The notes: generated from the letters alone by a model not told the origin. Shown: positions 2,980-19,629, numbered from the stretch's first letter. The stretch is 20,639 nt of DNA from a virus (IMGVR_UViG_3300023174_000746:1-20639), one strand, 5' to 3'. Made by a program: numbers and translations.

Positions 2980-5900
2980 TTATCCGTTATCTAGTTTTCT
3001 TGGGTTAGTTTTCAAGAAATATGCTACTTCATTCGTCGAATCAGCTAGGTTTTTTCCCGGGTCATTCCATGGCGTAAGAACTTTTCTAACAACCTGTATT
3101 CTTATTCCCGGTACATCTGGTATATTCTCTAATCTTACATTTGTTGTCATGTTATCTACAGTAAAATCTGCAGGGTATTCAATATCACCCTCGGGGCTTT
3201 CTGGATGAATTTCGTCACGGTGCAGTACGTATGGATCCTTTCTTTGTCTAATGCCGCCAACAAATACTTCAATCCCGTCCTTTTTCGGTATGTATGGCAA
3301 TTCTATTAAATGTGTACTGTCCAATAAAGCATCGGGATATTCTTCTGGCGGCCATACTGTAATTTCTTCTCTATCCCGATACGGTATAGCTTCATTTCCA
3401 CTGATATCGAATACTTTTTCGTTTATTACATGAACGTTTGCTATACCAGTACCCCATGTTCCTCTTCGAAGCTGACTCAATGTATTTCCATTTTTAATAA
3501 AATATTCTATTCTTTCTCCATTTACATAGATAACGCCCGGAATATTTGATTCAATTAAAGGGTTGTTTAATGTAGTACCATCTTCAACTATTATTTCTTT
3601 ATCGAAATACTGTAAATTCTCTGCCAAAATAGTAGTTCTATTTTTACTAATTCTTCTATAATGAACTCTATTTAACATATCTTTGAATTGCATAAAGGCA
3701 ATATTGTCTCTTACTATGTTATTAGAAAAAGTTAAAATTGAAAATTTATCTGATTCTAAAGGAAGTAAGTTGACTATAATTTCTGTTTTGTCTTCTGATA
3801 GTACATAATCTATATTAGGTGTTAATAGAATTTTATTTTTAATGACCCAAGCATAATTAGTATCGATAATAGGTCTACCAAGTTTAAAGATTCCAGCATT
3901 AACTCTAACAGCATCTACATAATATATACTATTTTGATATCGATCTACTGTATGGTAAACTCTGTAGTCTGTTCTTTGAATATCTAAAATATCATGATTA
4001 AACATAGAAATAATTTCTATTTTGGTGCCATTTGGGAATTGATTCTTAAATTCAATGTAATTTACACGATTTTCAGTACCTATCATATATTCGGTATATT
4101 TTGTTATAGTAACCAATAGTTTGGCATTTTCTATATAAAAATTATCTTGAACTATGATTTTTGAATTTAATAAATCTAATTTATATCCATTTGCTAGAAA
4201 CACTTGTACATCATTAATATAAACTTTAAAATCTGTTACAGCATATTGATTAATATCAGATTTGCCCAATGGAATATCATATTCATATACAAAATCTTTT
4301 AATATAAAATAAAACGAGTCAACGGAATTTAATATTTCATTACCTACTTTAACAATAGCATTATATTCTAACGGTAAAAGATTACCAATAGGATTGATTA
4401 AATTATATCTAGAAATATCTTCATTATATGTAATTGTTTCTCTAGAAACAATACTGGTTGTTCTAGACGAATTACCAAATATTAGATAATTTATTATTTG
4501 TCCAGGGTTCAGATCGAATGTAAATCTTAATCCCACTTTATTGTTTATTTTGAATAAACTATAGTTTTGAACTTCGCCTGATATTAATACTAGTAAACTT
4601 ATACCTTCTTCCCAAGGATAATCTGTTATTATTTCATTAGTTTTGTTTTCTACGATTTTATAATTATTATCTAAAACATCTACACCATTAAACCCTAAAC
4701 TAATAATAGAAATATATTTGTTCGCAGCCGGTGTTTGAGATAATGTTACCAATGAATTGTCAAAGTCTATAATATAATCAACATCTGGCTGTAGTATAAT
4801 CGTGTCTAACTTTACTATAACAGCAGACTTACTATTAGGATACTGCCCTATTTTAAATTCGCTATTAACACCGTCTGTCAAGTAATTCTCACAAAGTATA
4901 TCACTAGACCCAGAAAGATTACTATCAATTACTTTTATAACTAATGTATCTACTAGATGTCCCGGCAGCATTTCCTCTGGTGCGGGGCTAGTTGTTGGAC
5001 TGACAAATCTGTCACCATCGACAATAATATCTTCTGCTGTTAATCCAGTAGCAGAAGTATATGCTATATTACCACCTTGCAATAATGTATCGTATATTTT
5101 ATTGTCATTCTGTATAGGATCCCACCCTTTGTCGCCCCAAGTATTATTATCACTATCCCATGCTGTGGGTTGGGCGAAATTTATACCAACTATACTGACA
5201 CCGCCGTAATCTATTCCGCTCATTAATTGAGCAAAATCTTTACCTATCATACCGGATTCTGGGTCATAATAATGTTTAATTCTATCCAATGCCGAGTGAT
5301 GGTAAAAATCTTTTTCGTATGTTACTGTTATGATAGTGCCTGTAGCAGGGGGTTGAAGGAATGTTATTTGGCCATAATAAACCGTATAATCTTTTTCTTT
5401 TGATGTTGTTTTAATTATAGTATAGTTTTCACTAATTACATCAATAGTTCTTTCATCAATAGTAAATTGTACTAGAATTTTTTTATATTCAGTATTAGGA
5501 CTATACATTAAATCAAAAGTAATTTTGGCATCATCACCATTAAAAATATCTATTTGTTTCAGTGGTAGTATTTGATCTAATGTTTTTTTAGTGTAACGAT
5601 CAAATTTTAATGCTATAAGATTACTTCTAACAAGATCATTTTTTATAATAGCCACTGCTTGTGCTTGAGTACCCCCAACACTCAAATGTCCTTCTATTAT
5701 AATTTCAGGTGCTTTTAAATATCCGGCACCTTGATCTAATATTTCAATTTTTGCCACGTGATTTTTGGCTATAAATGCTCTAGCTCGAGCTGGTCTTGTA
5801 CAATTTCCTATAATTTTTATCAAAGGTCTGGAAGTATATCCTTTACCTGGATTCGAAATAACTATATCTTTTATACTAAATCCTATGTTATCACGCCATA

Positions 5901-8900
5901 AACTCCACGGATATTCGTTTACAATATTATCATAATAATATAGCTCATCATCATTAATTTTGGTAGCAATTGCTTCTATGGTGCCATTACTAATATATGA
6001 CGGTAAGTCGAAATCAGTTACCATACTTTGAGTGTTTTCCATGTTATTATAAACACTGACAAATTCTCTAATTTTGGTACGATAGGGTTTAACTTCAGAA
6101 ATATAGTTTTCAAAATCTTCTAAATTGTCATTACTATATGTTATTTTTTGTTTTAGTTTACCTACATTATGTAATGCCTTGACAAAACTAGATTTAAAAA
6201 TCCAATCCAAGTATGGCTGTTCTTGTAATGCATATTTGATGCTAAGGAAAAATAAATTCAAATATAATATTCTTCGATCATCTATCAAAATTCTATCTTT
6301 CAAACTGTTTAAAATTATGCGTAGTTCAGTGGTCCCAGCATTATCAAATTTATTAGAATCATATAAGCCACTATCATATCCTAATTTATTTTTAACAAAA
6401 TTATAAAAATTAGTTGATATCTGAATAGATCCGTTTTGCCTTCCTACTACTTTATAACTTTGTGTATAATCAATAGACTCAACATTGGAATATTTTACCA
6501 ATAACATCCATCCTGAATTGCCTACATTATTGACCTTTACTGTTTGGCCTATTTTGCTATCATGAGTAAAGAGTTGATAAGTGCCATCTACTACATGATC
6601 AATTTTACTATATTGATCATATGTATGTTCTCTACCGGTTACTGGGTCTATATAGGATCCATACCAATCGATATAATTCCAAAAAGCAGTAACATCATAT
6701 TCTTGAATCTTTACTTTGCTCCATATTTCACCAACAGGATCATAAGCATAAATGGCCCAATTACCAAAAATTGTACTATCACTTCTTACTAATACACTTA
6801 AAGGCCTTAGTGATAAACTAGTAGTGCCGATATCATATCCTTTACCACCGTTTATAATTTTAATAGAAGATATGCCTCCATTAGTAGTTAACGTTGTTTT
6901 AACTTCTGCTGATTGCCCGGATCCTGATATACTTACAGGGGGAGAATTTTTATATCCGTACCCAACAACATCTACATTAATGGATATAATAGTACCATTT
7001 TCTATTTTAACTGATAATACAGGCTTTTTAAATAGATTTACATTAATAAATCTTAATTCACTTTCGGTGTCGATTACATAGTCATACACTCCAGAAAGAG
7101 CTGTAGGAGGTAAATCTTTCTTTAGTAAATCAGTTAAATCTAGATTATCTATTTGAATTGTTTTAAATTCACTATTAATTCTTTCAATTATTTGTTTAAC
7201 AGCTTCTAATCTATTGACGAACATACTTTGACGCGGGTTTGATTCTACACCATATCTTTGTTTTGGTGCTAATGTAAGATCTGGCACCATTTTACCATTG
7301 CTGTCAAACCCTACTAAACTGTCAATCCATTTCTTTTCAATATGTTTAGGGATTTCAGTTTTTTCATTTTCACTAATAATTTTCCATTGACTATGAATGT
7401 TTATATCATGTTGTGGAATATTCCAATATTGAATAGCTAATACTATGTCACGATCTGTTAAAACATCTTTAACATTAGTTAAACTAAAACTATTTGTATT
7501 AGTAAATTCGATAAACTTTAAAGCTGCACCTTTTGGATTGCTAATAATATTAGCAATGTCAGCAGCTGAATTAGTTCTGCCTATTACTGTTGGCACTGTA
7601 GATTTATTTTTTACCCAATAATAGTATGTGGAACTAAACGTTTTAGCTACAGTATCATATTTTCTTTTAATACTATAAACATCGTCGCCATATAAGCTTT
7701 TTCCACTAATGCCTTTTGCAATTCCCTGTTCAGTGTCGGCAATTTTATCCCATTCGGAAGGAGTATATTTAGAAGAAACCCATTCATAGACATCGATACT
7801 AGCTGTATTATATAAAGTATTCCAAACAGTATTTTTATAAACAATATCGCTTAAATGTGCATCTAAAAATTTAGCTCTACGTAAATCCCACCATAAGGTG
7901 CCCACTTCTGCATCTACCCAGGCCATGCCATCGTCCACGATTACTTCTATTTCTGATGCAGCAGAACGGAAGGAATATGTAGCAGGATCATAATAAGTTT
8001 TAAACTTAATTTGTTCTTCGGCAATACCTGATATTTTTCCTTGGGTCGGATCTATAATATCCAAGTAGGTGACTAATTCATTTGTTCTTTTATTATATAA
8101 AAAGATTTTTTTGAATACGCTTAAATCTATCTTGGCTGTTTCTTCTTGAACAATTGCCCAACTATAAGTGTCAGCTTTTCTTTTATGTGTATAAACAGTT
8201 CCACTATTTTCTAAAGGAGCAGAAATTACTATGCTATTATCTGATGCATCTACAACATATCCATATTGTTGTGCTTGTGCTTGATCATTAGCCACATCTA
8301 GGCTTTCAGAAAATATAAATTTAGTATCATAGATGTCATAAACATCTACTCTGCCCGAGTCTATAACGGTGCTATCATCGTAATTTACTAAATGTCCTTT
8401 AGAAGCATCACCTAAAGAATTAAAAATTATCAATGTTTTTTCATTATTAACAAATTTAGTATATTTGCCAAATATTTCATTAGTATCAGTTACCTTATTT
8501 CTATCGATTAATGTTTGTAATAATTGATAATTTTTGTAAATGCTTACTGCTTGATCTGAAGATATAGCCAAGTAAGTTGCATTTTTTGATAATGAAATTT
8601 CTTTTCCAAAATGTGTTAAATTTAAATTTTCTATTTGATAAACCATTGACTGATCTTTATCAAACTGATCGCCTGTTCTTTGAAAGATTAAAACTTTACC
8701 GTGTTGACCATGAGTTAATGATATAGAAATTGCCAGTGTTTTGGCTTTTTGATCAATATCAAATTCATAGGCAAATGGTTGATTTTCACAATCTACGTCA
8801 TTTGGGGTTATAGTATCAAGACATTGCCAAACATTTGTAGAATCTTCAACAAGTTTATAATAGTAAATTATACCAGAAATATTCAGACCATTAGTACTGC

Positions 8901-11900
8901 TAATTGTTAAAGAATATGTTTGATCATAAGCAAATTTAATTTTGAATCCAAAATAAGGATCTGGTTCTGTGCTTGATAAAGTTGTAACAAACTCATATTC
9001 TTTTTTGTCGCTTAATTTGTATAACTTAACAACTTTATTATTTGACAAAGTTGTACAGCCAACAGCTAACCAGTTTTTATCTTCGCTGAATGCTAGATTA
9101 TTAGCAAAAGTTGTTAATCCGGACGGCATAAAAATTGTTTGACGTTTAGTCCATCCTGAATCATTAGAAAGTGATGTATAGATAATTACTTGTTGGGTTG
9201 TGTTTTGACCCATGCCCACAGCCATAATATCACCAGCATTATTAGTAGCCAAACTTCTACCAAATCTAGAAGTATTACCTAATAAAGGATCATATAGCTT
9301 GTGTCGTGTATAAACAGTATTATTTTGCCAAACTGCATATTTGTTGTTGATAGATTTGTTAATCCAAGCAAGTTCGCCTTTTTTAAGATGTTGTGGAACT
9401 ATTAGATCATCTACTGTGGCAAATCTTTGTGGTAAAATTTTAAAAACTTTAGTAGTGTTTATAGTTCCAGAATCAATATTTGACACCCAATTAATAAGTC
9501 TAATATTAATTTCAACTATCCTTCCATCTATTGCATTAATTTCAAAAAATGAGTTAACTTTATCGTAATCTGATTTTATACCAATTATTTGGCCTACTAC
9601 AAAATTTATATCATTGGCAAAAGATATGTATAAAGTATTGTTTGAATATGCCATGCTATTAATCGCATAGTCTGTTTCAGTAAACCGATATACGTTCCAA
9701 TCGTCATTGAAATTGTTTATTTTATCTTCGAACGCACACCAAATATAATCACCTGAAACAAAATTATCTATATCTTCTGTTAGTAAACTAGATCTTGAAT
9801 CAACAGCCAATTTAATCTGATCATATTTGACAAATCCTGGTGTACGTAAAAAAGGTCTATAGTTATTGTTAATTGGCCATAGATCATTTTTATACAGTTT
9901 GGGTTTTAGATATATGTCATTTTTAGTTTGTCTAATTACAAAATCTACCAACGTATTATCAACGGTGCTGACTAATTCAATTGCTTGAGGATTCACTTTA
10001 AACGCAGCTTCGTCTAATATAAATTCTACTTCATCAAAAGCGTCACTGGCTCCATATTGCCCTACTCTAATAGCCCATTCCTCAATGAAATCAATACTAT
10101 CTTCGTTAGCTGCACTTAACACATCAAATAATTTATTCAAAGAATTAACCGTACCTTTTTCCTGTATCATTCCTTGATAAAATTTAAATTCACTTACATC
10201 ATTTTTAATGATATTACTCAAGTACTGTCGTTTTTGATAGCCAATTAAATGTTGTGCTATTTTTTGTTGTCCAACATCAAAATTGTCGCTATCTAAATCG
10301 TAAAAATCTGTAAACTGTAAAGCCTTGTAATCCCAGTTAGGCAATAATCTACTAGTTGGTTTAGTGTCTTGCCTTATCCATTTATTTTTTTCAAATTCTT
10401 CCACACCTGGTAAAAAGGTGCTAGCCGAATAATAAAATTCTTTATATTTGACAATGTCTCCAAGATTATAATCCATCCAAGGTTGCCAATCGTTAATATA
10501 GGCCCTATCATAAATGAATCCCGGAGCATCAAGGCTACCATTCCAATTTAATGTTTTATAACCCGAAATTTTAATTCTTTCTTGTCTATAACCTGTTTCG
10601 GGGCTATAAATTACGTCATTAAATTGTGTGGAGTTATCGATTATTAATACATGTTCTTTTTGTATTAGATAGAAACTTGCTCCATATACGCCAATGTTTT
10701 CGTTTTTTGGACTTAAACTAAAAATATCATCATATCTAGAATAATTTAAAAGATTAGGTTCGTATTTTTGCCCATCTGCTGAAAATATTTCATAATCTCC
10801 AATATGTTCTCTAAGATCATCCACTGTGGTATAACTTAAATTTAAATCTAATCTTAAAGCCGCAGGGCTTAAACTGATTGCCGATGCTCCATCTTGATTT
10901 AAATTATCTAATTTTATGTATAAATTAGCATCAAAATAATTACTAGATGTATGATCTTGTTTTACCCTATAATAGTCCCCGTTATAAAGAATAACAGATC
11001 CCAATTTATAGGAAGTGTCAAAATCCCAATCTTGATATTTTTCTGATCCCGAACTCCAATTTTGAGTGGTCCAAAATAAAAATTCTTTAACACTGACATC
11101 CCAACTAGCTACTGCTTTTAAAGTTGGATTAAACTGATCAAAAGCAAATCCTTGATCTTTTAGATACTCCCCATGCCCTTGTAGAAAATCTACTACGTCT
11201 TGGATCGATTCTAAAGTAGTTCCGTAATTTAAAAGAATAGGAATTCTTTGCCATTTTTTTCTAACAATAGCATTAGCACCGCCAATGATAGGTAATGCTG
11301 CTAATTTTTGGAGTAGATCAAAATTAGGATTGTCACTGCTAGTATGCGAAGTTTTTACTCTATAATAACTACCGTTAATTTCTAAAATATTTCCAACTAC
11401 GTATTGTTGATTAGAATTCCAATTAATATAATTTTCACTAATTCCGCCTATATTAATTCCATGTCCTGACTGCGTCCAAACATAGTAGTAAAAATAAGGT
11501 TGAGTTTGACTATAACCTTTTATTTCATATCCTATACCAGTTTTAGTTAAAACTTTAGTTACTATAACACCACTATATAATATTTTTTTAATAGGACTAC
11601 TAGTGTTTAAAAATATTTTATAATTCTCATTAGGCACAAACACGCCTGATTTGGATGAACTACTTTTACTATCTAGTATTAAATTATATTTTTCCTTACT
11701 AGTAAATGCTGCTAATCTATGACTAATTTTATTATTAATAGTTGTTAAGTCATTTTTATATGTGTCTAATCCTGTAGAATTTGCACCTTGTAAATAATCA
11801 ACTACATAATTAATTAATCCTGCTGTTAATGTTCTTACACTATCCGAAACAGTATTTGGTACTAACAAATCCTTTAGTCTTAATCTCACACCTGTTTCTG

Positions 11901-14900
11901 AATAGATCAATTGGTTGTTTCTATTTTTAACTATCCTTGATCTATCTAGTAAACAACCTAATACTCGATTGGGCTGCATTAGAATCATGGTCATAATCAA
12001 ACTAAATGGATAATAACTACTACGACGCCATGCTGTTTCTACTGGGTTCTGGTCTCCGAATACATATGTATACGATGTATTACTGTTAAAAATGCCTTTT
12101 GCTAAATTAGCACGTAAAGGATTTATTAGTAGACCGTCTTCGCCTACAGGAATATTTTTAAGTGCAGGTCTAGCAAATTTAGGATTGCGTGTTACAGGTT
12201 TGCCTGGCTCTTTAATAATCCCTTCCGTTAGATCTTGCCAAAGAATTAAATTATCACTAGTATATGGTGCAGGGCCGTATACACTTTTCCACCATCTTGG
12301 CTGCGTACTAAAACCTAAACTTTCCCATGGTGTTAAGTGAATACGATCTGTATCGAAATACCATTTGTAAATTCCACGCCAATATCCTGGAACGTTATTT
12401 CCATCTATGCCAACTGCTTCCCTATAGTTATAAGTAAAAGGATTTGTTGAATCATATTTCAAAGGTCTAGTAAAATCTGTGTCAATTAGCCCAGCCCAAC
12501 GATAAAAATTAGGTGCAAGAATTTGATTAAATTCGTCTAAACTATAAATGGTAGATCTATTAGAGCCTGGAATAAAATCATATATGTCTAAAATTTGTGG
12601 ATCGTACTTAACTTTAATATTATTAAAAAATCGTTTTTCTAATTCTAATATTAAATCATCTCTATAATCATTATAGGCCAATATAACACTGCCATCATGT
12701 CCCTGTATAATGTTTTTTGGGTTAAGTAACGTGGTATCTAAATAAATTTTTGGTTCGAACTTTGGATATAATCCTAAGCTTGTAGGAGTAGAAGGAATAT
12801 AACAACCATCTGTTGACTCGTATTCGTAGACTGTTAATACATCATCTTCTTTTATATCTGTTAGTATTTCTAAAAATCCATCGACACCAAATATATAATC
12901 ACGCTCATGTAATAATTGACCATTATTCAAATAAACGTTAACTGATTTATTACTTAAAATTTCCAATGTAAATGGCGCAGCTAATGGATATTTTTTAACT
13001 CTGTAATCCTGTACTGTAAAATCAGTTTTTTTAGCTGCACCATAACCTAGCATGTCACTGAAATAGTAAGGAGCTTTTTTAGGTTTTCCTTGATTAATTT
13101 CAAATAAAATTAAGTCAACAGCTTCCTTGACCGATATGTCATTGTTTAAAAGAGTAGTATGATTTATAAAATTTCTTTTAAACACACCAAAATCATCTCT
13201 GGCTTTTTCTAAACCTTTTATTATGTTAGCGTCTTTATTGCATAAATGATATAAAGATAAATTTATACTTCCGCTATGTTGAATAAATTTAGTACCATGG
13301 CTACTAAGATTACCAATGTCCCGTAGATTACCAACTCCCGGATAAGTTCCTTCAAAGTTATCTAAATTATCTACTATAGAATCTACGTGATCAATGACCT
13401 CGCCTAAGGTAAAATCATTAATATTACTGTTTAACGGGTTATTTTGTAAATTGATAGGGAATTCATAATAACCGTTATCATTTTTAGATTGCTTAGAATA
13501 ACATTTTAATGTGACTACATCTGTTTGTGCCACATCTTGTGCCAATACTATTTTTTTATAAACAGCAGAATCTTCTAAATCAAATTGACTTTTATCAAGT
13601 CTTTTGCCATTTATATAAACTTTTACTAATAAATCATCGAGATCATCTTTATCATCATAAACATCTATAGAAAAATTGTTAACAAGATCCGAATCTTTAT
13701 AAATTCTCACAATAGGTTGAACATTTTTTACAGTATTTTTAGTCCACCCATTAATATATTCTGTGCTTAATTTGGAATACTTTTTAAGAAATTTATTATC
13801 TGTATTTTCAGTTATTACATCGGCTTGTTGTTTGTAACTAAAACTTTCCTGTAATAAATTGTAATTAAAAACAATATCTCCAACATTATTGATATTTTTA
13901 TAACTTAATGCAAAACCTAATTCACTATCTTTAACACCAGTTCCTACTTTATAAGAAAATATTTTATTTCCTGTAAAGGTAGTACCTATATATTTGTCAG
14001 CATCTGTTAAACTAACTTCTTCGTTATCAAATAAATCAAATAAAGGTGGCTGATTTTGCCCAGTTTTAATTTGACCTAGTACCCATTTAGTTCCATTAAA
14101 CCATAAATGTTTACTTTTATAATTAATGCCATTCTTAATTAAAATAATTTCTTCTAGCACTGGATTACTATCTGTTTCTTCAGCTAGATGAATTCTTCTT
14201 TGACCAACATCATTGGCATCATCGTGAATAACTGTAAATTCTACTTTAAAAATTTTATTACTTACTAAAGGATCTTTATCACCTGTAAACAATATACGAT
14301 GACCATTAAGTAATTGAACACCATCGATATTATATCCCAATGATCCTTCTATAATAGAAAACACATCATTAGTAAAGTCGTCGACTAGATCTACATCTTT
14401 TTTAGGGGCTATTCCAAAGTTATAAAGTTTAATATTTGCATTAAATTCTATAATAGGTCTTTTAGCTCGCTGGGCTTGATCAAATACTGCTTGTATACCT
14501 AAGCAATCTGCTGTTTTTTGTATGACATCTTGATGAACCCAACGATTATATCTAGACCAAGGATTACGATCAAAACTAGCTCTGTTAATTGTAATATAAT
14601 CCTTTTGCTCGGCTGAATATATAACATCATTATAAGGCAAATCGTCGAAGCCAGAAGTATCGAAATCTACATCATATTCTGTAGTATACGGTGCTACAAT
14701 TTCTAATTGTTTTTCTGGTACAAGTTGAATTTTATCCCCTACACCTTCTACATAAAAGTCGCCTTCACTATATGAACTAGGAGTAACACGACCTTTAAAA
14801 TTAATTTTCATACCATTGCTTAAAGATATTCCGTTAGGCAATGTGTAAGTTTTTGCGTTTATAATTTCATTTTCGACATCTATGGCTGTATTTTCTTTTA

Positions 14901-15717
14901 TATCAAATATTTTAATAATACCAAATGTATCTGCTGAATTTTCACTGGTATAATACAATACGTCCGGACTTTGCAATGGTACTGTAAAAGTTATTGATCC
15001 GTTTTCTACAGCATGGTTGTCAAGATCAGGATATCTAAATAATGTGCCTGTTTCACGTTGAGTTTTAATGCTAAATGGTTCTGTAGGAGTATCTATTTCG
15101 AATGTATAAGTTTGTCCACGATATAAAGTTAAAGATGGATTTCTTGTCAAACCGTCTGGGGTGAAAAGATATGCTCTATTATCCCCTTCGTCAGATAATG
15201 TTACTTTAAAAGTTCTGGTTATTTCTTGCTGTTGTCCATAAATTGTTACGGTCTTAGGCCCGAATGGTAACCAATAATAATGTAAAAAGTTAACTATCTT
15301 ATCCCAGTCGATATGCGGTTCCCAACTATAAAATTCTTGTTGATTAAGTCTTTGATGATTATTTGCAATGCCGCCTGCTACATTTACAGTATTAACATAA
15401 TCTAAATAATCTTTAAAAAATGTAACATTACCTAATGTATCCTCAACGACTAAACTTGGTTCTAGTTGATAATTTTGTCTATCTACCAATGGCTCTTTAA
15501 GGAAAACATCATTAGCTGTTACAGCTTTAGCATTTTGTCTCCCAATAAATCCATTAAGTCTTTTTACAGTTCCATTTTGAACAAGTTGATCTATAGTGCC
15601 GGCAATGAATTTTCTATTGCTATCGGTTCTATAAAATTTAGGCAGTAATGATTCAGTTTTTCTTTTTTGATTTCCATCAATAGGAGGTGCATTTTCTGTT
15701 TGATCTTCAGACATCAT
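2980..15717 (-). CDS. Giant mosaic virion structural protein, probable baseplate/tail periphery component (4245 aa)
   Basis: One uninterrupted 4245-codon frame, starting inside the gp6 stop (ATGA overlap) behind a strong AAGGAGG site. It is placed as T4 gp7 is, directly after gp6, but T4 gp7 is only about 1030 residues, so equivalence is positional inference. Recognisable blocks: a conserved N-terminus (about 20-160; LLPKFYRTDSNRKF, RLNGFIGR, HYYWLPFGP); a cupredoxin-like beta-sandwich (about 186-271; LYRGQTYTFEID); RWVHQDVIQKTA with KRPIIEFNANIKLYNFG (about 385-450); three W/Y-x-x-G-x-x-V-Y modules (about 1430, 1562 and 1742); a seven-blade FG-GAP-like propeller (about 2150-2520); GxGY repeat pairs (about 2916-2962 and 3288-3339); a helical YLDWIFKSSFVKALHNVG and EVKPYRTKIREFVS segment (about 3150-3235); and a C-terminal VNGERIEYF...LRRGTWGTG domain (about 4056-4102). 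There is no signal peptide or membrane segment. It probably assembles into the outer baseplate and may bind surface glycans. Confidence 0.85.
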   Translation of the reverse strand: MMSEDQTENAPPIDGNQKRKTESLLPKFYRTDSNRKFIAGTIDQLVQNGTVKRLNGFIGRQNAKAVTANDVFLKEPLVDRQNYQLEPSLVVEDTLGNVTFFKDYLDYVNTVNVAGGIANNHQRLNQQEFYSWEPHIDWDKIVNFLHYYWLPFGPKTVTIYGQQQEITRTFKVTLSDEGDNRAYLFTPDGLTRNPSLTLYRGQTYTFEIDTPTEPFSIKTQRETGTLFRYPDLDNHAVENGSITFTVPLQSPDVLYYTSENSADTFGIIKIFDIKENTAIDVENEIINAKTYTLPNGISLSNGMKINFKGRVTPSSYSEGDFYVEGVGDKIQLVPEKQLEIVAPYTTEYDVDFDTSGFDDLPYNDVIYSAEQKDYITINRASFDRNPWSRYNRWVHQDVIQKTADCLGIQAVFDQAQRAKRPIIEFNANIKLYNFGIAPKKDVDLVDDFTNDVFSIIEGSLGYNIDGVQLLNGHRILFTGDKDPLVSNKIFKVEFTVIHDDANDVGQRRIHLAEETDSNPVLEEIILIKNGINYKSKHLWFNGTKWVLGQIKTGQNQPPLFDLFDNEEVSLTDADKYIGTTFTGNKIFSYKVGTGVKDSELGFALSYKNINNVGDIVFNYNLLQESFSYKQQADVITENTDNKFLKKYSKLSTEYINGWTKNTVKNVQPIVRIYKDSDLVNNFSIDVYDDKDDLDDLLVKVYINGKRLDKSQFDLEDSAVYKKIVLAQDVAQTDVVTLKCYSKQSKNDNGYYEFPINLQNNPLNSNINDFTLGEVIDHVDSIVDNLDNFEGTYPGVGNLRDIGNLSSHGTKFIQHSGSINLSLYHLCNKDANIIKGLEKARDDFGVFKRNFINHTTLLNNDISVKEAVDLILFEINQGKPKKAPYYFSDMLGYGAAKKTDFTVQDYRVKKYPLAAPFTLEILSNKSVNVYLNNGQLLHERDYIFGVDGFLEILTDIKEDDVLTVYEYESTDGCYIPSTPTSLGLYPKFEPKIYLDTTLLNPKNIIQGHDGSVILAYNDYRDDLILELEKRFFNNIKVKYDPQILDIYDFIPGSNRSTIYSLDEFNQILAPNFYRWAGLIDTDFTRPLKYDSTNPFTYNYREAVGIDGNNVPGYWRGIYKWYFDTDRIHLTPWESLGFSTQPRWWKSVYGPAPYTSDNLILWQDLTEGIIKEPGKPVTRNPKFARPALKNIPVGEDGLLINPLRANLAKGIFNSNTSYTYVFGDQNPVETAWRRSSYYPFSLIMTMILMQPNRVLGCLLDRSRIVKNRNNQLIYSETGVRLRLKDLLVPNTVSDSVRTLTAGLINYVVDYLQGANSTGLDTYKNDLTTINNKISHRLAAFTSKEKYNLILDSKSSSSKSGVFVPNENYKIFLNTSSPIKKILYSGVIVTKVLTKTGIGYEIKGYSQTQPYFYYYVWTQSGHGINIGGISENYINWNSNQQYVVGNILEINGSYYRVKTSHTSSDNPNFDLLQKLAALPIIGGANAIVRKKWQRIPILLNYGTTLESIQDVVDFLQGHGEYLKDQGFAFDQFNPTLKAVASWDVSVKEFLFWTTQNWSSGSEKYQDWDFDTSYKLGSVILYNGDYYRVKQDHTSSNYFDANLYIKLDNLNQDGASAISLSPAALRLDLNLSYTTVDDLREHIGDYEIFSADGQKYEPNLLNYSRYDDIFSLSPKNENIGVYGASFYLIQKEHVLIIDNSTQFNDVIYSPETGYRQERIKISGYKTLNWNGSLDAPGFIYDRAYINDWQPWMDYNLGDIVKYKEFYYSASTFLPGVEEFEKNKWIRQDTKPTSRLLPNWDYKALQFTDFYDLDSDNFDVGQQKIAQHLIGYQKRQYLSNIIKNDVSEFKFYQGMIQEKGTVNSLNKLFDVLSAANEDSIDFIEEWAIRVGQYGASDAFDEVEFILDEAAFKVNPQAIELVSTVDNTLVDFVIRQTKNDIYLKPKLYKNDLWPINNNYRPFLRTPGFVKYDQIKLAVDSRSSLLTEDIDNFVSGDYIWCAFEDKINNFNDDWNVYRFTETDYAINSMAYSNNTLYISFANDINFVVGQIIGIKSDYDKVNSFFEINAIDGRIVEINIRLINWVSNIDSGTINTTKVFKILPQRFATVDDLIVPQHLKKGELAWINKSINNKYAVWQNNTVYTRHKLYDPLLGNTSRFGRSLATNNAGDIMAVGMGQNTTQQVIIYTSLSNDSGWTKRQTIFMPSGLTTFANNLAFSEDKNWLAVGCTTLSNNKVVKLYKLSDKKEYEFVTTLSSTEPDPYFGFKIKFAYDQTYSLTISSTNGLNISGIIYYYKLVEDSTNVWQCLDTITPNDVDCENQPFAYEFDIDQKAKTLAISISLTHGQHGKVLIFQRTGDQFDKDQSMVYQIENLNLTHFGKEISLSKNATYLAISSDQAVSIYKNYQLLQTLIDRNKVTDTNEIFGKYTKFVNNEKTLIIFNSLGDASKGHLVNYDDSTVIDSGRVDVYDIYDTKFIFSESLDVANDQAQAQQYGYVVDASDNSIVISAPLENSGTVYTHKRKADTYSWAIVQEETAKIDLSVFKKIFLYNKRTNELVTYLDIIDPTQGKISGIAEEQIKFKTYYDPATYSFRSAASEIEVIVDDGMAWVDAEVGTLWWDLRRAKFLDAHLSDIVYKNTVWNTLYNTASIDVYEWVSSKYTPSEWDKIADTEQGIAKGISGKSLYGDDVYSIKRKYDTVAKTFSSTYYYWVKNKSTVPTVIGRTNSAADIANIISNPKGAALKFIEFTNTNSFSLTNVKDVLTDRDIVLAIQYWNIPQHDINIHSQWKIISENEKTEIPKHIEKKWIDSLVGFDSNGKMVPDLTLAPKQRYGVESNPRQSMFVNRLEAVKQIIERINSEFKTIQIDNLDLTDLLKKDLPPTALSGVYDYVIDTESELRFINVNLFKKPVLSVKIENGTIISINVDVVGYGYKNSPPVSISGSGQSAEVKTTLTTNGGISSIKIINGGKGYDIGTTSLSLRPLSVLVRSDSTIFGNWAIYAYDPVGEIWSKVKIQEYDVTAFWNYIDWYGSYIDPVTGREHTYDQYSKIDHVVDGTYQLFTHDSKIGQTVKVNNVGNSGWMLLVKYSNVESIDYTQSYKVVGRQNGSIQISTNFYNFVKNKLGYDSGLYDSNKFDNAGTTELRIILNSLKDRILIDDRRILYLNLFFLSIKYALQEQPYLDWIFKSSFVKALHNVGKLKQKITYSNDNLEDFENYISEVKPYRTKIREFVSVYNNMENTQSMVTDFDLPSYISNGTIEAIATKINDDELYYYDNIVNEYPWSLWRDNIGFSIKDIVISNPGKGYTSRPLIKIIGNCTRPARARAFIAKNHVAKIEILDQGAGYLKAPEIIIEGHLSVGGTQAQAVAIIKNDLVRSNLIALKFDRYTKKTLDQILPLKQIDIFNGDDAKITFDLMYSPNTEYKKILVQFTIDERTIDVISENYTIIKTTSKEKDYTVYYGQITFLQPPATGTIITVTYEKDFYHHSALDRIKHYYDPESGMIGKDFAQLMSGIDYGGVSIVGINFAQPTAWDSDNNTWGDKGWDPIQNDNKIYDTLLQGGNIAYTSATGLTAEDIIVDGDRFVSPTTSPAPEEMLPGHLVDTLVIKVIDSNLSGSSDILCENYLTDGVNSEFKIGQYPNSKSAVIVKLDTIILQPDVDYIIDFDNSLVTLSQTPAANKYISIISLGFNGVDVLDNNYKIVENKTNEIITDYPWEEGISLLVLISGEVQNYSLFKINNKVGLRFTFDLNPGQIINYLIFGNSSRTTSIVSRETITYNEDISRYNLINPIGNLLPLEYNAIVKVGNEILNSVDSFYFILKDFVYEYDIPLGKSDINQYAVTDFKVYINDVQVFLANGYKLDLLNSKIIVQDNFYIENAKLLVTITKYTEYMIGTENRVNYIEFKNQFPNGTKIEIISMFNHDILDIQRTDYRVYHTVDRYQNSIYYVDAVRVNAGIFKLGRPIIDTNYAWVIKNKILLTPNIDYVLSEDKTEIIVNLLPLESDKFSILTFSNNIVRDNIAFMQFKDMLNRVHYRRISKNRTTILAENLQYFDKEIIVEDGTTLNNPLIESNIPGVIYVNGERIEYFIKNGNTLSQLRRGTWGTGIANVHVINEKVFDISGNEAIPYRDREEITVWPPEEYPDALLDSTHLIELPYIPKKDGIEVFVGGIRQRKDPYVLHRDEIHPESPEGDIEYPADFTVDNMTTNVRLENIPDVPGIRIQVVRKVLTPWNDPGKNLADSTNEVAYFLKTNPRKLDNG

Positions 15718-18700
15718 GCCCCTCCTTGACTACTTGTAATATTTTGTTGGGATACTACAAAATTACTAGAATTAATAGACCCTGCTGCTGAAATCGTATT
15801 AGCTGTTATAGTTGTAATCACTTCAATATCATCACTAGTGGCGCCATTAATAAAAATTTGATCGCTTTCTGCTTTAATTTCAAATAAACTACCGAAATAT
15901 AAGTTGGGTTGTCTAGGAACTATGACCATATTAACTAAGTAAGGAGCAGTTCTTGCCATAACATACGCCACCAATTCACTGAAATAAAAACTATCTCCAA
16001 AGTCCCAGTTTTCCAAAGCAAAAAATTCATTTATTGATGTTAATACATATGTTCTTAATTGATTATCACTAATAGTCTGTTCTGCATTTTTAATTAATTT
16101 AAAACTGGCTCTTAAATTTAAACTAGCTTTAGGACCAAATAAAACTTTATATTTCACAGGATGATATATAATTTCATCACTCATTGCTTTAATATTATTT
16201 AAACTAGGTGACAACAACAAGTTTAATTGGTCCGAGCTAGGCGGCAGGGGTTCGTCATCGAGATTACCTAATAGCCATTTTCTAAATTCTAAATCATATT
16301 GTTTGGTTAATACAAATAAATCCATGATATTAATTTGCCCTGGATCTATTCTTGCTTCGTAGTCTGCACTATGAACATATTGAAATTTTAAGCTTTCCCT
16401 TCCTTGATAAACTTTATAGTCTAAATTGGCTATAAATCTTCCTTGAACATTATCCCAGCGAGCAACCGTGTCTGTAACTATAAAATAAAAATATTGATTG
16501 TTTATTTTTTCACTTAATAATACATCAGTTGAGCTATTTCTAATTTTAATTAAATTATTATTAGTAATATGTCTATAATCTAGCTGCCCATTTCCTGTTT
16601 CGTATCTTTCTAAAATTATATATTTTGATTGATTAGTACTAGGAGCCACAATAATATCAAAAATATCAGGATCGTCGACTACCCCGTCGTCATTGCTATC
16701 GTTAAATGTTAATTCTATTTTTTTAGAATCTACATAACCGTCTGAACCTAAAAATTCTTTGCTAACTTCCCAATCTAAGTTATAGGTAAAAGGATTTATG
16801 CTGTCAGGTTTAGTGTTAATATTTAAAATGCTTATTTTATCTTTGACAACTTTGTTACTTCTACTATCATAAACTTTATTATTAACATCGAAATAAAATC
16901 TTATTTGTTTATCACTTTCAAATATGTATTTTAATTGTCTTGTTTTAACAGTATAGTATTCAGTGTCGGTAGTGAATAATATGAGCCAACTAGCATCTAA
17001 CTTTTGATTACTGCTATCTCCTGATTTTCCTGTACTGAATAATCCGCTTAGGTCAAGATTTGCTTCATAAATTAATATCCAAGTTTTTGTAATTAGATCG
17101 TATCTTAGGCCAAATGGCTTATTAGAAAAAATCAAATCTATCATAGTAGATATAGTTGTGGCATCTAAACTAGTTCGCCATTTTGGTATAACTTCGACTA
17201 ATTTTGCGTCTGTTGGTATTTCTACATTTAACGTGACTGGTCCTTGTCCGGTAGTCAGTGCAGCAACGGATCCATTTTCACTAACACTAACAACTTTAGC
17301 CCATAGATATGAAGCCGAATTTGGCATAGAAGTAGTGCCAGTTACTAGAGCATTAGTATTAGTTTTCAAAAATACTTTGCCATTTGGCGGTACAAATTTT
17401 AATAAAGCCCCTGGCTCTAAATGTTTTAAATCATTACCACTACTATAACCCACAATTAAATTGAGTTGATTTTTAAAATATCCGGTACTTTGATTAGTAT
17501 CTTGTGTTACTTGATTCCAAGTATAGGTATCAGCTGTAATTGATATTTTTCCAAATTTATCATAGTAAAAATTGCGTATATTAATATCTTTAATAATGCC
17601 TAATACTTGATTGTAAATTATTGCTTCAATGTCAGTTTTTCCAACATAATTAAATCTAAAACTATCTTCGTATTCTTCTTTATAAATTATACCGTCATCG
17701 GCAAATAAATTAGTACTACTATATTTTCCTGTAGGATCATTTAGATCAAAATATCTACTAATACCGCTACTGGTTCTATTAATAGTTTTTATTTTGGCTA
17801 CGTCTTGACTAACGCTTAGGGGACTAATGTTATAGTCCTCTGCTGTGATCATACGATTTTGTGTATAATATGTAGCAGGTGCTTTGGTCTTAATTTCATC
17901 ATTGCTTTCGCTTAAAGAGCTATTGCTAACGCTGGATTGTAAACCTAAAGTAATACTTAATGTTTCAATTTGTCCTATATTAGACACATAAGGAATGGAA
18001 ATGGAAATATTTCTCATGTCTTTAGGATTTATAGTGTAATTAATTCCATTACTCACACGATAATAAACTCTAAAAGTACCTAAAGGCAATGTGCCAAACG
18101 TTCCATCACTAAAAGTTAAACTAATTCTGTCTTCTGCCCTAGTAACAACACCATATATATTTCTGATATTTTTCTTTAAACTATTGTAAATTATATTATT
18201 GCCTTCAAAGCTAGGAACTTTAGCCCAATATTCTTGTTCTATTCCATTAGTGTCTAATTTATAAAGCCAAACATCGGTATCATTAATATTAACAGCATCG
18301 ATGTCGACAATTTCATTAGTACTTGGTTGTGTAATTGTAAAAGCACCAGTGTTTAAGCTACCTTGTCTAAAATGTAAAAAGAATCCGGTAGCAGGACTAG
18401 CAGCACCACGGCCGTCATCCCTGTAAAGAAAAGCCAAACTTTTTCCTGCCTGAGGAGGATCTTCCACTATGTCCATACCGTCTTTAATGATAGTACTGAC
18501 TATTTCAAAATTCATATTTCTGCCATCGACTACTTTGGTAAATCCATATACTGGTATATTTCTACTGGCTGTTTGTACTCGATATTCTTCTGTAGGTATA
18601 CTATAAACAACTGCTTTGTTATCAGGATTACCAAATTGTTTATTTGCAGGCATTGCGGAATTAATAACTTTTATAAATTGATCATACCAATTACTATTTG

Positions 18701-19142
18701 CTGTATCATTCCAAATTATTTCTTGTCCTGATAAATTTCTTCCATTGCTATCTATCACTGCTTGAGTTGTAGAAATGCCAGTGAATTTTAATAATCCATT
18801 TGCTGTTTGATTACGATTGGCATTATAGCCTAACATTCTAGACAGTCTTAATACACTTTCTCTACGTTCAGCAAGTTCTAGGAAATTTTCACGGGCATTT
18901 AAGTCTACTCTAAAAGCAATACTTTGCCCTAAAAAAGCAATCATATCTATTAATGCTAGATATTCACTGCTTTCAATATAATCATTAAAATCTTCAGGAT
19001 AATTTTGTCTTAAATAATCTACCATTACTCTACGCAGATTTTCAAAATCATAACTTTGAAAGTCAGCGTTTCTGTAGCTTTGATAAATTCTTTTCCAATC
19101 TTCGGCTACGAGTAATCTATTTTGTCTGTCGGTAGATGACAT
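15714..19142 (-). CDS. gp6: Baseplate wedge subunit gp6 (Baseplate_J family)
   Basis: An 1142-residue homologue of T4 gp6, the wedge protein that forms the continuous inner ring of the contractile baseplate. The N-terminus (about 1-115) has DWKRIYQSYRNADFQSYDF, then SEYLALIDMIAFLGQSIAFR and NFLELAERRESVLRLSRMLGY, typical of marine gp6. A Baseplate_J core follows: FSDGTFGTLPLGTFRVYYR (about 340-360), then IKTKAPATYYTQNRMITAEDY (about 418-438). The C-terminus keeps SINEFFALENWDFGDSFYFSELVAYV (about 1030-1055). T4 gp6 is 660 residues, so the middle is expanded; residues 815-826 form an EF-hand-like loop. The ATG at 19142 is supported by AAGGA six bases upstream and by the late promoter just before it. 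The gene ends in a TGA overlapping the giant gene's ATG, so the two are probably translationally coupled. With gp25 and gp5 next to it, this is the inner-baseplate cluster. Confidence 0.93.
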   Translation of the reverse strand: MSSTDRQNRLLVAEDWKRIYQSYRNADFQSYDFENLRRVMVDYLRQNYPEDFNDYIESSEYLALIDMIAFLGQSIAFRVDLNARENFLELAERRESVLRLSRMLGYNANRNQTANGLLKFTGISTTQAVIDSNGRNLSGQEIIWNDTANSNWYDQFIKVINSAMPANKQFGNPDNKAVVYSIPTEEYRVQTASRNIPVYGFTKVVDGRNMNFEIVSTIIKDGMDIVEDPPQAGKSLAFLYRDDGRGAASPATGFFLHFRQGSLNTGAFTITQPSTNEIVDIDAVNINDTDVWLYKLDTNGIEQEYWAKVPSFEGNNIIYNSLKKNIRNIYGVVTRAEDRISLTFSDGTFGTLPLGTFRVYYRVSNGINYTINPKDMRNISISIPYVSNIGQIETLSITLGLQSSVSNSSLSESNDEIKTKAPATYYTQNRMITAEDYNISPLSVSQDVAKIKTINRTSSGISRYFDLNDPTGKYSSTNLFADDGIIYKEEYEDSFRFNYVGKTDIEAIIYNQVLGIIKDINIRNFYYDKFGKISITADTYTWNQVTQDTNQSTGYFKNQLNLIVGYSSGNDLKHLEPGALLKFVPPNGKVFLKTNTNALVTGTTSMPNSASYLWAKVVSVSENGSVAALTTGQGPVTLNVEIPTDAKLVEVIPKWRTSLDATTISTMIDLIFSNKPFGLRYDLITKTWILIYEANLDLSGLFSTGKSGDSSNQKLDASWLILFTTDTEYYTVKTRQLKYIFESDKQIRFYFDVNNKVYDSRSNKVVKDKISILNINTKPDSINPFTYNLDWEVSKEFLGSDGYVDSKKIELTFNDSNDDGVVDDPDIFDIIVAPSTNQSKYIILERYETGNGQLDYRHITNNNLIKIRNSSTDVLLSEKINNQYFYFIVTDTVARWDNVQGRFIANLDYKVYQGRESLKFQYVHSADYEARIDPGQINIMDLFVLTKQYDLEFRKWLLGNLDDEPLPPSSDQLNLLLSPSLNNIKAMSDEIIYHPVKYKVLFGPKASLNLRASFKLIKNAEQTISDNQLRTYVLTSINEFFALENWDFGDSFYFSELVAYVMARTAPYLVNMVIVPRQPNLYFGSLFEIKAESDQIFINGATSDDIEVITTITANTISAAGSINSSNFVVSQQNITSSQGGA
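15721..15727 (-). promoter_or_regulatory. Strong Shine-Dalgarno (AAGGAGG) for the giant gene
   Basis: The minus strand reads AAGGAGG-GGC-ATGATG. The site lies within the last codons of gp6. It is three bases from the first ATG (15717) and six from the second (15714), so the second Met has the more usual spacing. The first ATG overlaps the gp6 TGA. Either start gives the same protein apart from one Met. It is the best ribosome site I noticed in the window, placed before the longest gene. Confidence 0.75.
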
Positions 19143-19188: not shown

Positions 19189-19629
19189 TTATCCTATCAA
19201 TCCATTATCTTGATCAAATTTAAATTTTATGGCTTCTGAAATATTATAAGGAAGATAAGTGAGATCACATTCAATTTGTATGCCGCTTTCATAAGCAGTA
19301 ATACTGATATCATTTACCCGAACCCTGGGGTCATAATTAATGACATTTTCAACATTTTTTATTATTAAATTTTTTAAATCTTCAGTTAATGGTTCAAAAA
19401 TTACGTCCCAAATTATAGTGCCAAATTCGGGATTCATTAATCTTTCTCCCTGTCTTACTTGAAAATGGTTAATAATATCTTGTTTGATCAAAGCAAGATC
19501 ATATAAAGTATAACTTTCACTATCAGGACTTATAGTGCTAAATCCTCTATATGTCCTAGGCAAGGGAGGCTCTGCTTTTAAATTGTTTCCTTTGACAATT
19601 AATTTTTCATATAATCTTTGAATACTCAT
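19189..19629 (-). CDS. gp25: Baseplate wedge subunit gp25 (gp25/TssE-like sheath initiator)
   Basis: A 146-residue member of the gp25 family; T4 gp25 is 132 residues. This protein joins gp6 in the wedge and provides the first docking strand for sheath assembly. Visible family features are YDLALIKQDIINHFQVRQGERLMNP (about 43-67, quoted in part) leading into FGTIIWDVIFEPL, and the core motif near residue 100, which reads YDPRVRV; it corresponds to the conserved E-P-R core, with Asp in place of Glu. The last third (NDISITAYESGIQIE...) forms the usual terminal strands. The ATG at 19629 lies eight bases after the gp5 stop. Its best ribosome binding site, AAGGA, sits within the last codons of gp5 about 12 bases upstream, which suggests coupled translation. 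Known structural roles come from T4 and type VI secretion homologues; placement here is supported by both sequence and neighbours. Confidence 0.93.
   Translation of the reverse strand: MSIQRLYEKLIVKGNNLKAEPPLPRTYRGFSTISPDSESYTLYDLALIKQDIINHFQVRQGERLMNPEFGTIIWDVIFEPLTEDLKNLIIKNVENVINYDPRVRVNDISITAYESGIQIECDLTYLPYNISEAIKFKFDQDNGLIG

Follow-up and report, generated by a model that had tools for sequence, protein, structure and literature searches.

A seven-bladed FG-GAP_2-type beta-propeller in the variable slot of a giant baseplate-region protein of uncultured phages

The window is the 20,639-base IMG/VR virus record IMGVR_UViG_3300023174_000746. Its minus strand displays, in order, genes for a gp5-like spike, a gp25-like protein, a gp6-like wedge protein, a giant protein of 4245 amino acids (aa), a 202-aa protein and fibre/collar proteins. 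The giant protein contains a seven-bladed beta-propeller of the FG-GAP_2 type. The propeller occupies a slot that is variable in related proteins, and is present in one supported clade of uncultured phages. Positions are listed in Table 1.

Table 1. Features of the window; residues are those of the giant protein and tiles are background segments described in the text.
Feature	Position	Strand	Residues	Remarks
Seven-bladed FG-GAP_2-type beta-propeller	8128..9336	(-)	2128-2530	AlphaFold2, Pfam, VIA-align
Blade 1, FGRSLA	9121..9276	(-)	2148-2199	18.2 bits; 0/125 tiles as high
Blade 2, FANNLAF	8965..9120	(-)	2200-2251	12.8 bits; 0/125 tiles
Blade 3, FGFKIKF	8788..8964	(-)	2252-2310	4.7 bits (weak); 1/125 tiles as high; four predicted strands
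Blade 4, FAYEFDI	8623..8787	(-)	2311-2365	16.0 bits; 0/125 tiles
Blade 5, FGKEISL	8485..8622	(-)	2366-2411	28.9 bits; 0/125 tiles
Blade 6, FGKYTKF	8278..8484	(-)	2412-2480	4.4 bits (weak); 5/125 tiles as high
Blade 7, YGYVVDA ... ISAP	8137..8277	(-)	2481-2527	23.0 bits; most canonical repeat
Upstream half of slot, poorly conserved	9337..10017	(-)	1901-2127	Identity 40-54% to six homologues, 78% to nearest
Conserved downstream flank	7108..8127	(-)	2531-2870	Common to RaK2, PA5oct, SCTP-2, Atu_ph07
Span of three CBM5/12-like modules, upstream of propeller	10372..11424	(-)	1432-1471, 1562-1602, 1740-1782	In giant protein
Giant virion structural protein	2980..15717	(-)		Open reading frame, 4245 aa; T4 gp7 position
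gp6-like baseplate wedge subunit	15714..19142	(-)		1142 aa; phrog_10646, 983 bits
gp25-like baseplate wedge protein	19189..19629	(-)		Pfam GPW_gp25, 39.6 bits

Repeats, fold and family of the propeller

The initial annotation of the window had pointed to seven motifs, 46–69 residues apart, as the blades of an FG-GAP/integrin-like propeller at positions 8160–9270. All seven motifs are present within one residue of the places that had been given, i.e. at residues 2152, 2204, 2256, 2315, 2370, 2416 and 2485, and the measured spacings are 52, 52, 59, 55, 46 and 69 residues. The region was correctly located, however its limits cut off the end of blade 7, and the seven repeats run from 9276 to 8137. 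An aromatic-Gly pair is found at strand 1 in most blades.

Each blade was scored with profiles made from the other six blades of 13 homologues, and 125 tiles taken elsewhere in the giant protein served as background. Blades 1, 2, 4, 5 and 7 of the window score higher than all 125 tiles. Blades 3 and 6 are clear only across homologues, where the median scores are 10.0 bits for blade 3 (best tile 6.0) and 11.9 bits for blade 6 (best tile 8.9). The internal repeats are thus singled out in five of the seven window blades and in the remaining two at the level of the family, and the seven repeats are confirmed as real and beyond chance. Blade 6 displays a long, low-confidence loop between strands 2 and 3 (the 2-3 loop), which contains one NYDDSTV unit and is 21 aa long in the window and up to 50 aa in homologues.

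An AlphaFold2 model based on the alignment of 17 homologues (the window is one of the 17 rows) displays seven sets of four strands (28 in all) and two further strands at the N-terminus, with a pLDDT (predicted local distance difference test) of 85 and a pTM (predicted template modelling score) of 0.86. In comparisons by VIA-align, the model gives Z values of 27–29.6 to many solved seven-bladed propellers, and the integrins alphaM (29.6), alphaL (29.5) and alphaX (28.5) are among the top, with 332–348 residues aligned at about 3.4 Å. With seven sets of four strands and integrin alpha headpieces at the head of the structural ranking, the toroidal fold expected in the initial annotation is borne out by the model, and the assignment of the domain as a seven-bladed beta-propeller is well supported.

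The Pfam family FG-GAP_2 (PF14312) matches 17 of the 17 aligned homologues, with a best E-value of 1.7e-13. The window by itself scores 22.4 bits, at blade 7, which is just under the gathering score of 23. Scores above this cutoff are found in distant members, i.e. L032 (67.7 bits), L035 (31.5), L037 (30.6) and L028 (29.3). When the homologue profile is compared with the sequences of the PDB, integrin alpha-6 is matched in register (E = 1.1e-5) and nothing else falls below 0.05.

The integrin alpha propeller is defined by the Cage motif, in its strict form aromatic-aromatic-G-aromatic, 13–20 residues, P, 2–15 residues and G, and has DxDxDG calcium loops in blades 4/5–7; propellers of the integrin type have already been described in bacteria (PMC3192720). 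The strict Cage motif has no match in the window or in the other 16 rows of the alignment. A relaxed form, FG..P..G, is found in one blade of the window and in up to seven in L035. The window propeller has no DxDxDG calcium loops, as had been noted at the outset, and a degenerate form, Dx[DN]x[DN]G, is found in blade 4 of 6 of the 17 aligned members. Because of the Pfam and profile matches, and because the window lacks both the Cage motif and the calcium loops, the propeller is of the FG-GAP_2 type and outside the integrin subgroup. Thus the FG-GAP assignment stands, with FG-GAP_2 rather than the calcium-binding integrin type as the nearest Pfam family.

The window propeller shares with the N-terminal propeller of integrin alpha the seven four-stranded blades, the aromatic-Gly at strand 1, the highest structural Z values and the profile match, and the two are akin in fold and probably in ancestry. 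The window differs in lacking calcium loops and a strict Cage motif, and no beta-subunit partner is known for it.

FG-GAP propeller proteins are already known from annotation in phages and giant viruses. Those of phages Phosso (proteins 129 and 130) and Atu_ph07 also display FG-GAP-type repeats and no DxDxDG loops. These are encoded by separate genes and are about 393 aa long, whereas the window propeller is a domain inside a 4245-aa protein, and in relatives it bears nested carbohydrate-binding modules (CBM) of the 5/12 type. Entries of a related type in BFVD are an "FG-GAP repeat" protein of an uncultured Caudovirales phage and an Atu_ph07 "hemagglutinin" of similar predicted fold. In Sinorhizobium phage Phosso (L204:7374-9782) the two stand-alone FG-GAP_2 propeller genes are adjacent and score 98 and 63 bits.

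The variable slot and its distribution

The slot comprises window residues ~1915–2530. The sequences that flank it align with those of RaK2, XbC2, Vibrio phage 2.275, PA5oct and SCTP-2, but the slot itself does not, and from residue 1993 to residue 2556 none of the columns of the family alignment is invariant. The slot is 217–220 residues long in RaK2 and XbC2, 280 in Vibrio phage 2.275, 333 in PA5oct and 521 in SCTP-2, and no propeller blades are found in any of these five. The slots of Atu_ph07 and Phosso are about 1550 residues long and also have no blades; in Atu_ph07 repeats of the GYxxxP type largely take the place of the propeller. Visual inspection of the SCTP-2 slot suggested a LamG-like domain, which further checks did not confirm. 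Few 403-aa stretches of the giant protein diverge as fast as the propeller, which has 64% identity to the nearest relative compared with a mean of 80%.

In INPHARED, 57 records have the downstream flank, and in seven of these phages the slot was read directly. When INPHARED was searched with the propellers of the window, L035 and L032, no giant protein of an isolate gave a propeller match; the one weak match led to the two stand-alone genes of Phosso. Scans of IMG/VR gave at least 576 relatives with the downstream flank as anchor and 356 with the propeller as anchor, and the top 80 of each entered the survey. Anchoring on the flank makes no selection for the propeller, but the best 80 of that scan are biased to the window's own clade. 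Blades are present in 106 of the 112 non-redundant slots sampled (weakly in two), and the six slots without blades belong to five isolates and one metagenomic contig.

In the tree of the downstream flank, a branch supported at 99/88 separates the propeller-bearing sequences from the others, and presence of the propeller changes once; as the outer placements depend on long branches and the tree has no established root, a gain in the clade and a loss elsewhere are indistinguishable. The survey of homologues suggested in the initial annotation therefore finds the block in one clade and not in the seven isolates read. Contigs of 356–400 kb (L057, L106, L111, L203) carry the giant protein, and the clade thus includes jumbo phages.

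Variation on one face of the propeller

Of the 112 slots, 46 have modules of the CBM5/12 type within the propeller or next to it, as counted with a profile of our own that was partly built from the same sequences. Pfam independently matches CBM_5_12 in L010, L030, L032 and L037. The modules either split the blade matches at profile positions 24–26, which correspond to the 2-3 loop, or fall between blades, i.e. in the 4-1 loop. Of 31 clear automatic placements, 16 are in the 2-3 loop, 15 in the 4-1 loop and 0 in the 1-2 or 3-4 loops. Eleven others follow strand 2, seven precede blade 1 and the remainder are ambiguous; cases checked by hand agree with the 2-3 and 4-1 placement. In an antiparallel propeller the 2-3 and 4-1 loops share one face, and the 1-2 and 3-4 loops are on the opposite face, which holds calcium in integrins. 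The insertion of the I-domain in integrins parallels these inserts on the 2-3/4-1 face.

Loop lengths vary most on the same face. Over the 17 homologues the length ranges sum to 201 residues for the 2-3 loops, compared with 33 (1-2), 32 (3-4) and 42 (4-1). A predicted model of the decorated L032 propeller displays CBM strands between strands 2 and 3 in two blades and after strand 4 in another; its pLDDT of 67.6 is moderate and supports the loop placement rather than the geometry. On the tree, CBM presence changed about 20 times, and at least 11 of these changes are forced by supported branches.

The giant protein of the window matches Pfam CBM_5_12 at 42.1 bits (cutoff 26.2), and the three modules upstream of the propeller were positioned with a profile of our own that had these same modules in its training set. 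Both these and the modules grafted in relatives resemble CBM5/12 (PF02839) at scores above the cutoff. They differ in setting, as the grafted modules are nested in propeller loops of a virion protein and are not joined to a chitinase.

In a close relative, at L010:8975-9418, collagen-like Gly-X-Y arrays, encoded by 18-bp and 9-bp DNA tandem repeats, are found together with two CBM5/12 modules between blades 4 and 5; the collagen assignment is confirmed by Pfam. In the blade 6 loop, a 21-bp tandem unit encodes NYDDSTV-like repeats, with one unit in the window (8362-8400) and a comparable stretch at L015:9674-9747. Several such units are present in L008, L011, L012, L013 and L015, and their variation in length might be due to slippage.

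Baseplate setting and possible role

The first 4 bases of the giant gene are also the last 4 of the gp6-like gene. T4 genes 6 and 7 have the same order and the same 4-base overlap. A comparison by hhalign of the giant-family profile with the single T4 gp7 sequence found nothing (probability 0.1%). The giant protein matches phrog_10938 ("virion structural protein") with 1055 bits in five stretches, outside the slot. Its location beside a gp6-like gene is also seen in PA5oct and RaK2, and the PA5oct relative has been detected in virions by mass spectrometry. The same is true of phAPEC6 gp245, a protein of 381.88 kDa (PMC7247149), which is counted as a relative by its size and its place beside the wedge gene. 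RaK2 ORF070, PA5oct gp355 and phAPEC6 gp245 (phrog_10938) have the same position by the gp6-like gene, the same flanking domains and 25–34% identity to the window on the downstream flank. Unlike the window protein, those of RaK2 and PA5oct, the two of the three in which the slot was read, have no propeller there. By position the giant protein corresponds to T4 gp7, in the virion of a jumbo myophage related to RaK2 and PA5oct.

The propeller appears to have been inserted as a display domain into the variable slot of this protein. It would provide a rigid and stable scaffold, with the 2-3/4-1 face, opposite to that of the integrin calcium loops, free to vary and to carry exchangeable elements that bind the host surface. 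In relatives these would be the grafted CBM5/12 modules, in one case with collagen-like stretches. Located on the baseplate, the propeller would make multivalent contacts with glycans or proteins of the host surface at adsorption. We infer from this arrangement that the domain is exposed outside the baseplate, has a ligand there and is adhesive. A baseplate scaffold with one variable face that displays host-binding elements is the explanation we favor, and a reasonably likely one, because the scaffold has been kept while one face was repeatedly rebuilt with sugar-binding modules. The initial annotation had proposed an adhesion or docking platform in a baseplate protein. The baseplate setting is supported by the gp25-like and gp6-like neighbours, the 4-base overlap and the mass spectrometry of relatives, and adhesion is backed indirectly by the one-face modules in relatives.

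Several observations weigh against a display scaffold. As seven isolates have no propeller, a baseplate of this type can do without the domain. No CBM is inserted in the window's own propeller. Part of the CBM placements are ambiguous, about six located after strand 3 could be in either the 3-4 or the 4-1 loop, and closely related loci are not independent. Furthermore, fast divergence, which fits host-driven change, and loops that tolerate insertions and deletions are also expected of a domain under relaxed constraint.

The propeller may instead be an internal docking hub for another virion protein, such as a fibre, whisker or decoration protein, with a variable face that tracks this partner. 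Propellers are commonly scaffolds for protein-protein contacts, all sampled members of the clade have the domain, as they should if it makes a required structural contact, and Phosso and Atu_ph07 have propeller proteins as separate genes. However, the recurrent gain and loss of CBM modules on the variable face and the collagen-like insert are more in keeping with outward display than with a packed interface, and seven isolate relatives manage without a propeller in the slot. We consider a docking hub unlikely.

A propeller of the WD40 rather than the FG-GAP type is suggested by Foldseek, whose best PDB matches are WD40 proteins, and by VIA-align, where WD40 propellers have Z values of about 27–28, within about 2–3 of the integrins; neither method decisively separates the two. 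Weak WD40 matches are also found in 8 of the 17 homologues (best 0.0048). In the window WD40 (PF00400) scores 14.1 bits, below the cutoff of 27, whereas FG-GAP_2 matches all 17 homologues and is strongest in L032. The in-register match to integrin alpha-6 and the aromatic-Gly at strand 1 of most blades also point away from WD40, which makes this assignment very improbable. About as improbable is an enzyme domain of the glycosidase, lyase or sialidase-like kind with capsule or slime as its substrate: it would account for a weak Pfam GH32 echo in the window (0.048) and for profile matches to paraoxonase propellers in the PDB (E about 0.1), but these matches are insignificant and no significant glycosidase or lyase family is found in any of the 17 homologues. 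Chance resemblance without real repeats, to which only blades 3 and 6 of the window, taken alone no better than a few random tiles, lend anything, is refuted by the structure prediction together with the family, profile and structural matches, and its probability is negligible.

In a broader form, the display scaffold would mean that an integrin-like adhesion head arose on the baseplate in a large clade of uncultured jumbo phages, and that its single exposed face is repeatedly re-armed with CBM modules, tandem-repeat loops and collagen-like stretches, changing host contact without touching the tail fibres. This extension is tentative, and we lean somewhat against it. Host contact in jumbo phages is mostly credited to tail fibres. 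If true, a display scaffold of this kind would provide a second, modular route to altering host contact, in a baseplate-region protein that hundreds of environmental phage contigs encode (one scan gave 356 relatives). No report of an FG-GAP domain in a phage baseplate was found in the literature searched, mostly without subscription papers. The propeller is easily overlooked, since the giant proteins carry no annotation beyond "virion structural protein" or "hypothetical protein". FG-GAP propellers, whose fold is known above all from integrins, also gain a clear example in a virion.

In two metagenomic relatives the giant open reading frame is broken and continues in a second frame, at a different place in each (L013:10975-11060 and L042:6250-6340), which represents either an assembly error or a real interruption. 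Short beta repeats of the GYxxxP type are also present in the giant protein of the window, at residues 2919, 3291 and 3330 (bases 6963, 5847 and 5730).

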